Shown one piece after another: positions 21,249 to 42,937 of a stretch of DNA of 64,000 nt; position 1 is the first letter of the stretch, and each line of letters begins with the position of its first letter. The position numbers and the translations under genes are program-made. Where the stretch lies: assembly GCF_000378485.1 (NCBI RefSeq), contig NZ_KB899967.1, positions 1 to 64,000 of the forward strand. Reading direction: 5' to 3'. The stretch is from Flavobacterium rivuli WB 3.3-2 = DSM 21788. GTDB taxonomy: Bacteria > Bacteroidota > Bacteroidia > Flavobacteriales > Flavobacteriaceae. The notes below the pieces were generated by a model. The model ran no database searches. It worked only from the letters and a program-made list of their open reading frames with translations, and had not been told where the DNA came from.

Positions 21249-21267
21249 AAGTGTCGAAATAACACTA
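21249..21267. promoter_or_regulatory. Putative AraR operator at araA
   Basis: AAGTGT-N7-ACACTA matches 11 of the 12 fixed positions of the palindrome seen at susC and araB. It begins 20 nt upstream of the presumed -7 box, so it would overlap the -33 region of the araA promoter. Confidence 0.55.
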
Positions 21268-21576: not shown

Positions 21577-21610
21577 AAGTGTATAATTTATACTTATTAT
21601 TTTATCTTTG
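21577..21610 (+). promoter_or_regulatory. Putative AraR operator and promoter of the MFS transporter gene
   Basis: AAGTGT-N7-ATACTT (21577-21595) lies within a larger 27-bp palindrome (21573-21599). The -7 box TATCTTTG is at 21603-21610, 31 nt before the ATG. The palindrome covers the place of the -33 element, which has no clear TTTG. Confidence 0.6.
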
Positions 21611-26957: not shown

Positions 26958-27000
26958 CAAATATAACATGAAAAAAATAATAAATGTGCTTTTAACACTT
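26958..27000 (-). promoter_or_regulatory. araB promoter and putative AraR operator
   Basis: The -7 box is TATATTTG (26965-26958). The operator AAATGT-N7-ACACTT spans 26982-27000, where the -33 element should be. No clear TTTG is present upstream, so the promoter may be weak without help. The site ends 7 nt before the stop codon of the upstream gene. Confidence 0.6.
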
Positions 27001-41048: not shown

Positions 41049-41101
41049 AAATGTGTTTTTTACACTTCCAAATTTAACAAAACATTTTCATAAAAAGCAA
41101 A
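41049..41101 (-). promoter_or_regulatory. susC promoter with putative AraR operator over the start site
   Basis: TTTG (41101-41098) and TAAATTTG (41076-41069) are 21 nt apart on the minus strand. Directly downstream AAATGT-N7-ACACTT covers 41067-41049, where transcription should start. This placement fits simple repression. The divergent regulator gene could be controlled from the same region. Confidence 0.72.
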
Positions 41102-41258
41102 TAAAAATTTCGAAATATTAAATTTTAACATAAATAAAGTATCAACCCCATAATACTATAACGTAGTAGCGTTAACTATGCGTATTTTGCCGATATTCGC
41201 AAAAGTTTTGCAATTTACAGCCAATGTTAGTATCTTGCTGCGTTTTTATAAGGTACAA

Positions 41259-41945
41259 ATGGATAACTATAACGATCAGGAAAAAGTATTACTTGCTGTA
41301 GACTGCATAATTTTTGGCTTTGATAACCAAAATTTAAAGATACTACTCATAAAAAGAAATTTTGAGCCCGAAAAGGGCCGATGGTCACTTATGGGAGGGT
41401 TTTTACAAAACGATGAAAACCTGGATGATGCTGCCGTAAGAGTGTTAAACCAGCTTACAGGATTGCATAATATATATATGGAGCAGCTACGTGCTTACAG
41501 TGCCATAAACCGTGACCCGGTAGACAGAACAGTATCCATATCCTACTATGCACTTATTAATATTATAGAGCATACTGCAGAAATTAATGAGAATTATTCG
41601 GCAAAATGGTTTAATATAGACGAAGCTCCGCACCTTATATTTGACCATAATATAATGGTAGCCAATGCAATGCTTCGCTTAAGATATCGCGCATCTACAA
41701 AACCCATTGGATTTGAATTGTTGCCAAAAAAGTTTACCATGAAACAGCTGCAAACACTTTATGAAGCAATTTTAGGCGAAACTTTAGACAAGCGAAACTT
41801 TATAAATAAAATAAATGCCCTTGATATTTTACTTAAAACCGAAGAGAAAGATATGGGCTCGTCCAGGAAAGGTTCTTACTTTTATATGTTTGACGAAGTA
41901 AAATATAAATTAAAAGTATCTGACGGATTTACGTTTAAATTATAA
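41259..41945 (+). CDS. araR: AraR-type Nudix-fold transcriptional regulator
   Basis: I start at ATG 41259 (MDNYNDQEKVLLAVDCI), giving 228 residues; the in-frame ATG 81 nt upstream adds a non-conserved tail. The N-terminal Nudix fold has GRWSLMGGFLQNDENLDDAA, but the catalytic REUxEE part reads RVLNQL, so it should bind rather than hydrolyse. The C-terminal part (about 150-228) is a winged helix with KQLQTLYEAIL and KRNFINKI. This layout matches the NrtR-like AraR regulators of Bacteroides that sense L-arabinose. It is divergent from susC. Confidence 0.85.
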   Translation: MDNYNDQEKVLLAVDCIIFGFDNQNLKILLIKRNFEPEKGRWSLMGGFLQNDENLDDAAVRVLNQLTGLHNIYMEQLRAYSAINRDPVDRTVSISYYALINIIEHTAEINENYSAKWFNIDEAPHLIFDHNIMVANAMLRLRYRASTKPIGFELLPKKFTMKQLQTLYEAILGETLDKRNFINKINALDILLKTEEKDMGSSRKGSYFYMFDEVKYKLKVSDGFTFKL

Positions 41946-41980
41946 ACCTTTCAACTTATTTTTTTTGAGTTTAAAAGTAT

Positions 41981-42016
41981 AGACAAAAAACCTGATAACC
42001 TCAGGTCTTTTTGTCT
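41981..42016. terminator. Bidirectional terminator after araR
   Basis: ACCTGA and TCAGGT (about 41990-42006) form the core, extended by AGACAAAAA on the left and TTTTTGTCT on the right. The A and T runs serve both strands. Confidence 0.8.
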
Positions 42017-42113
42017 ATTTTGCTATGCAATTTTATAGTTACAAATAATTCGAAGCTTAAATTTTTTTCTTCGCAAGATCACCCCCACAATCAGCACAAA
42101 CACACAAAAAATT

Positions 42114-42162
42114 AAATGTTACTTACACACTTAATTACATTAAGACCATAAGGTTAATTTTG
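42114..42162 (+). promoter_or_regulatory. Orphan AraR-type site with a -7 box in a convergent gap
   Basis: AAATGT-N7-ACACTT (42114-42132) is an exact copy of the sites at susC and araB. TAATTTTG (42155-42162) follows 22 nt later on the plus strand, in the same order as at araB, araA and the MFS gene. The flanking genes converge here, so no known start codon is served. Otherwise 41946-42201 holds only the araR terminator. Confidence 0.5.
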
Positions 42163-42201
42163 TGTTAAGAGAATAAACTTCAACTTGTGGCGAATTGGTA
42201 T

Positions 42202-42864
42202 TTAGTTGTCTTTTTTGTTCCTCTCGCGCCACACTTTTTTTAATGCAACATAATCTATTTTTAAGGCAGGCTCCTGTCTTGGCAGTTTATGCTCATCAAA
42301 AGCTTTAAGCAGGAAACCTTCTATCAGGAAATCTTCGGCAACGGCATCCGGGCTGTATTTTGCCTTAATATCTATACTAAATGCCTTCCCAATCTTGCTG
42401 TACCAAAAAGCTTTCCAGCCACTTTTGTGTTCTTTTATTAAATCGAACGTAGATTGCCCGGTTTGCCTGTAAACAAGCTTAACGAGTATTTGCCCTTCCT
42501 TGCGCGATAATTTTTTTAACTGACCTTCAAATTCTTCCTCCATGTATTTCTCTACTATCTTACTGTATTTTTTCTTTTCCCTGTCGGTCTTTAGCTTGCT
42601 CATTGTAGAGTTAAGAATAACAAGGCGTTCGGCCGCAACTTTAGCAAAAGGATATACCTTTAAAACCCGCCTCCTTAGCAGGAGCAGTTGTTTTTTTGTT
42701 TCTTCAGATAATGTATCCTTAACATTAGAAAGTACTATTTCCTGCAGTTGCATATTAAACGCTATAGAGTCGGTCGCTATGCTGTCCTGCACCGGATCCT
42801 GCGCCTTTGCAGCAAACCCTAAAAACAAAAGTACTATTGAAAAAATCCCTGCCTTCATCTTCAA
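42202..42864 (-). CDS. DUF4294 family protein, secreted
   Basis: The 220-residue protein has a signal peptide (FSIVLLFLGFAAKAQDP). The conserved region (about 65-190) contains RRRVLKVYPFAKVAAERL, SRKEGQILVKLVYRQTGQS and EHKSGWKAFWYSKIGKAF. DUF4294 is found in Bacteroidetes and its function is not known. It is alone, convergent with araR and divergent from the peptidase gene, sharing a 73-nt start region with it. Confidence 0.8.
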   Translation of the reverse strand: MKMKAGIFSIVLLFLGFAAKAQDPVQDSIATDSIAFNMQLQEIVLSNVKDTLSEETKKQLLLLRRRVLKVYPFAKVAAERLVILNSTMSKLKTDREKKKYSKIVEKYMEEEFEGQLKKLSRKEGQILVKLVYRQTGQSTFDLIKEHKSGWKAFWYSKIGKAFSIDIKAKYSPDAVAEDFLIEGFLLKAFDEHKLPRQEPALKIDYVALKKVWRERNKKDN

Positions 42865-42937
42865 AAATTTATGTCAAAATTATACAATAATACACAACTC
42901 TGTAATCAAATTTCTATTTTAGCCAAAAATTAAATTT

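Follow-up and report, generated by a model that had tools for sequence, protein, structure and literature searches.

The gap behind araR, the gene for the L-arabinose repressor AraR of Flavobacterium rivuli, carries an exact AraR-type operator that stands in front of no gene. This orphan is very probably an AraR operator, because AraR is encoded next to it and the same motif occurs 5′ of genes of the regulon type. The reading that we somewhat prefer, judging from sequence comparisons, is that of a stranded operator, probably still bound by AraR and left with no gene to control. The window, that is, the whole stretch of 64,000 nucleotides analysed here, contains the following elements that bear on this reading:

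26982–27000, minus strand: AraR operator 5′ of araB, followed after 16 nt by TATATTTG
41049–41067, minus strand: AraR operator at the susC promoter, arranged as TTTG-N21-TAAATTTG and then the operator
41178–41945, plus strand: araR, AraR repressor gene (NrtR/NUDIX-type, L-arabinose), with NUDIX, NrtR_WHD and AraR_C domains
41946–42201: gap between araR and the DUF4294 gene, 256 bp, 29% G+C
41979–42018, plus strand: terminator-like hairpin after araR and before the orphan operator (terminator scan and inverted repeat)
42114–42132, plus strand: AraR-type operator without target gene, AAATGT-TACTTAC-ACACTT (AAATGTTACTTACACACTT), exact match, matrix score 20.0
42155–42162, plus strand: possible −7 box TAATTTTG, for which the start would be near 42167–42168 (3.2% chance on this strand)
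42202–42864, minus strand: DUF4294 gene, converging with araR (PF14127, E 2.4e-49)

The orphan operator and its regulator

The initial annotation had described an exact AAATGT-N7-ACACTT on the plus strand between convergent genes, with a −7 box 22 nt past it and no gene start to explain it, and each of these observations stands. The operator is one of three exact matches in the window (at 26982, 41049 and 42114), lies inside a 27-nt imperfect palindrome, AATTAAATGT-N7-ACACTTAATT, and has its first base 169 bp past the araR stop, which ends at 41945. No target gene was found for it in this gap between convergent genes, where no ORF start fits. Short plus-strand frames around the gap are not taken for genes; two of them were compared with their counterparts in Flavobacterium sp. 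Sd200, where the 126-aa antisense frame at 42542–42922 has an in-frame stop and the 21-aa frame at 42243 has lost its ATG.

The AraR of the window matches the BtAraR structure 5BS6 with an E value of 1.3e-72 and 53% identity over 215 aligned residues. Most AraR orthologues align from about residue 24–31 of the 41178–41945 frame onward; the coding start is perhaps the in-frame ATG at 41259, the first 27 codons (41178–41258) being probably non-coding. Three of the six base-contact residues of BtAraR are identical in the window AraR, where K184 is replaced by N and K204/R205 are exchanged to R/K (within residues 205–231); in Bacteroidetes AraR, the DNA-contact residues are called absolutely conserved (PMC4666351). 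Four further AraR-like proteins are encoded in the genome at E 1e-30, so that another of them might share the orphan site. In the library searched, no paper combined Flavobacterium, AraR, arabinose and regulon.

Motif frequency and promoter geometry

The three exact matches in the window compare with a mean of 0.01 over 100 dinucleotide-shuffled versions of it. Background rates were taken from 36 same-genus relatives, sorted by the presence of an AraR-like protein at a cut-off of E 1e-30. In the 22 genomes that encode none, 65.6 Mb of sequence contains 20 exact matches, a rate of 0.30 per Mb that corresponds to about 0.02 per 64 kb; the backwards pattern used as a control occurs in them at 0.38 per Mb. 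The rate is 0.89 per Mb (52 in 58.3 Mb; control 0.33) in the 14 relatives with an AraR-like protein and 1.24 per Mb (44 in 35.6 Mb; control 0.39) in the eight of these 14 whose AraR orthologue reaches at least 60% identity. Since rates rise over the control in AraR-holding genomes, the motif goes with AraR; the background rates also mean that one or two exact matches per genome are due to chance. The genome of the window holds 10 exact matches in 4.49 Mb, and none to the backwards control.

A symmetrised matrix was built from 33 unique sites at the araR loci of relatives; it is not independent of the half-sites, because its training sites were chosen with a related pattern. The score of the orphan, 20.0, is low in the training range of 19.1–28.7. 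Simulated order-3 Markov sequence gave scores of at least 19.9 four times in 46 Mb, a chance rate of 0.0056 per 64 kb and 0.39 per genome. The annotation had expected well under one exact match by chance in a stretch of this length, and the estimates, about 0.006–0.02, agree with it.

The relaxed pattern AARTGT-N7-ACAYTT has 15 sites in the genome against eight for its backwards control, and by itself is therefore weak evidence. Thirteen of the 15 are found upstream of a gene in the fitting orientation, no more than about 270 bp away, which supports the annotation's assignment of the motif to an arabinose regulator; one is intragenic, and the orphan is the only intergenic site without a gene. 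The genes 3′ of these sites, in ORFs called by a simple script, are araB, three susC-type genes, a transketolase subunit, a BT_3657-like arabinofuranosidase (its start set at the first Met within the called frame), GH43, GH3 and GH127 genes, an MFS transporter, a T9SS-sorted protein, a small protein whose tail resembles that of the latter, and a long gene whose site lies within a hairpin. The transketolase and a GntR-like gene were named by eye. Matrix scores of the genome sites before carbohydrate genes range from 19.4 to 26.6.

The candidate box TAATTTTG fits the TAHHTTTG consensus of F. johnsoniae (PMC6847099). By eye, no TTG or TTTG is seen about 20 nt before it, in the place of a −33 element; taking into account that this element is only weakly marked in F. 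johnsoniae (PMC6847099), the box neither proves nor disproves a promoter. A TAnnTTTG within 30 nt downstream is expected by chance in 3.2% of cases in the intergenic DNA of the window, and in 7.4% when either outward side is allowed.

The window and its relatives repeatedly show three promoter layouts. In one, the −7 box is followed 1–2 nt later by the operator (susC, tkt and tal); in another, of the araB type, the operator is followed after 15–16 nt by the box; in the last, 26–29 nt separate the operator from the box that follows it. Several AraR sites have no TAnnTTTG within 70 nt. The box-first layout is common to the susC of the window and to six relatives, which show it at susC in five cases and at a GH51-type gene in the sixth (L043), and in the window, Sd200 and F. 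zepuense a TTTG stands exactly 21 nt before its box. The 22-nt spacing of the orphan corresponds to none of the three layouts. The annotation had placed the operator and box in the same order at araB, araA and the MFS gene. This holds for araB and for the MFS gene, where a variant site, AAGTGTATAATTTATACTT at 21577, is followed after 7 nt by TATCTTTG; it fails on the araA side, where no TAnnTTTG occurs within 75 nt of the site at 21249 and there is only TAACGTTTG, with one base in excess. At susC, the order is reversed relative to the orphan, the box preceding the operator.

The slot behind araR in relatives

Twenty-nine araR loci were compared, or 26 after the duplicates L101, L103 and L104 had been dropped. 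A convergent gene lies behind araR in 19 of the 26, and three of these 19 gaps hold an exact AraR site, namely those of G008 (L096), G137 (L109) and G268 (L107). In five genomes the slot is occupied by AraR-controlled genes: the operator stands 5′ of transaldolase in G368 and 5′ of tkt–tal in G003, G010, G030 and G257, and two of the five also have a T9SS-sorted-type protein. A tblastn search confirmed transaldolase in G368 and G010; the other tal genes and the tkt genes were named by eye from their first residues.

The three gap sites are promoters that have no gene. In G008, G137 and G268, the promoter TTTG-N21-TANATTTG and its operator persist and align with the tal flank of G368, and a tal-type hairpin lies beyond the promoter, which reads towards the 3′ end of araR; there is no ORF, and tblastn gave no significant transaldolase within 1600 bp. 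As in the window, an exact operator thus lies between araR and a convergent gene. The two situations differ in that these genomes have the full TTTG-N21-TANATTTG directed towards araR, whereas the window has only a possible box, which points away from araR.

The gene that follows araR in G003 and G257 lies on the plus strand and has an AraR-type site, and the operators start 183 and 329 bp past the araR stop, compared with 169 bp in the window, so that the orphan sits roughly where the operator of such a gene would be expected. In the window's genome, the 52–55% identical homologue of this gene, which encodes a T9SS-sorted secreted protein, is located on contig C13 (L155 5030–6321) and has an operator of its own, an AraR-type site 26 bp ahead of the start. 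Where G003 and G257 have the gene, with the box preceding the operator, the window has no gene and the box follows. Direct homology of the gap to these promoters was rejected, as the sequences do not align; given this and the different box order, the likeness is one of position only. Upstream of araR, five relatives (G003, G008, G010, G257 and G368; L096, L097, L098, L106 and L108) have paired exact AraR sites 99 bp apart.

Among the genomes searched, the adjoining of araR and the DUF4294 gene is kept only in Flavobacterium sp. Sd200 (L039; the identical contig is also L101, from G141). There the gap between the two genes measures 8 bp and lacks the site, the rest of the window's gap being missing. 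Conservation of the site in relatives, which the annotation had proposed as a check and the lack of which it had listed among its refuting conditions, is therefore not borne out in the sole syntenic relative; with a single such relative, a gain in the window and a loss in Sd200 are indistinguishable. Sd200 has a one-mismatch AraR site, AAATGTATATTGTACACGT (L039 4999–5017), about 83 bp before its likely araR start, and several relatives have similar one-mismatch sites at about −75 to −80 of araR; the window has no counterpart of the Sd200 site.

Out of 398 genomes of the genus, none except its own contains a full-length homologue of the gap. With two candidates scored per genome, 94 of the 398 matched it at E 0.01, all partially except the own genome. 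The best of these partial matches, 50 bp at 84% over the site in G245, is taken as chance, because its left half-site is AAAAGT and its spacer one base longer. Fifteen other DUF4294 neighbourhoods (E 1e-70, besides Sd200) contain no such site in the stretches covered, and 398 genomes drawn a second time, now around G308 and probably for the most part those of the first set, gave no further relative at E 1e-95. The gap was also considered as a copy of another promoter in the same genome; its matches there are no better than those of three shuffled controls.

A proposed stranded operator and its alternatives

On this reading, the operator formed part of the control region of a gene under AraR that filled the slot behind araR, on the margin of the arabinan-utilisation locus. 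The gene would have been lost or moved, leaving the operator in the gap, where AraR probably still binds it without arabinose while no gene depends on it. What we infer from the sequence comparisons is that AraR binds the site, that this lineage once had such a gene, and that the site now has no function. This reading is favoured by the operators that remain without a gene in G008, G137 and G268, by the gene with an AraR site that fills the slot in G003 and G257, and by the combination of an AraR neighbour, the regulon motif and the absence from Sd200. Against it count the failure to find a remnant or homologue of a lost gene in the gap, the impossibility of aligning the gap to the G003 and G257 promoters, in which the box comes before the operator, and the exactness of the match, as a neutral relic stays exact only while young.

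The site might instead be an AraR-controlled promoter that yields a plus-strand non-coding RNA from about 42168, antisense through the DUF4294 gene, with AraR at about −54 to −36 blocking RNA polymerase without arabinose. Such an arabinose-controlled RNA had been suggested in the annotation, and we consider it unlikely. Its appeal lies in TAATTTTG, which fits the flavobacterial −7 consensus and flanks the operator on its outer side, a place that the box also takes at araB (16 nt away) and at the MFS gene (7 nt away), in the weak marking of −33 elements in F. johnsoniae, and in the abundance of antisense RNAs in F. psychrophilum, where 287 over 281 genes are reported (PMC9723704). However, the 22-nt spacing matches no layout of the relatives, a box has the 3.2–7.4% chance given above, the site is absent from Sd200, and Rfam gave no credible match, since mir-7383, the only one, reached 18.5 bits where the cut-off is 88.

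We regard it as highly improbable that the orphan is an auxiliary operator, at which bound AraR would either form a loop of about 1065 bp and so help to repress susC or araR, or be soaked up. The 99-bp-spaced exact site pairs upstream of araR in five relatives and the tandem sites at Bacteroides ara operons (PMC4666351) indicate that several sites per promoter are usual. BtAraR is nevertheless described as a homodimer (PMC4666351), 99 bp correspond to about 9.4 helical turns, so that the pairs are out of phase, and Sd200 lacks the site; nothing was found in favour of the looping with susC that the annotation had put forward. No more credit is due, in our view, to a chance match used by no protein, for which we see only a slim prospect. 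Between 0.39 (from the matrix) and about 1.4 matches (from the pattern rate of 0.30 per Mb) are expected by chance in a genome as large as this one, at least two exact genome matches look random, one intragenic (score 9.8) and one in a terminator hairpin (16.3), and only one of the 33 training scores would be lower than that of the orphan. Yet only 0.006–0.02 are expected per 64 kb, the site starts 169 bp behind araR, and its score falls within the 19.4–26.6 of the carbohydrate-gene sites, above 9.8 and 16.3.

It is also conceivable, if decidedly improbable, that AraR promoters without a gene have been retained behind araR because they serve a purpose, the site in the window being a second case that formed independently and points in the opposite direction, over the DUF4294 gene; the promoters in G008, G137 and G268 would then give a short arabinose-induced RNA towards the 3′ end of araR. 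Should gene-less promoters be active, they would be candidate arabinose-responsive small RNAs in Flavobacterium; should they be inactive, they caution against equating each exact operator with a regulated gene. Read as a stranded operator, the orphan is one more likely binding site for a repressor already known and illustrates how regulatory sites may outlast the genes that they served.

BtAraR (BT0354) of Bacteroides thetaiotaomicron binds operators of the AAGTGT-N7-ACAC type, and L-arabinose abolishes this binding (PMC4666351). The Bacteroides AraR sites were sought in promoter regions, whereas the orphan has no gene. Its architecture is that of the BtAraR operators, near-palindromic half-sites with a 7-nt spacer (PMC4666351), and it has the stretch TGTTACTT in common with the crystallised BtAraR operator (PMC4666351). 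It departs from the BtAraR operators in one half-site, which reads AATGT and not AGTGT, as do many flavobacterial sites.
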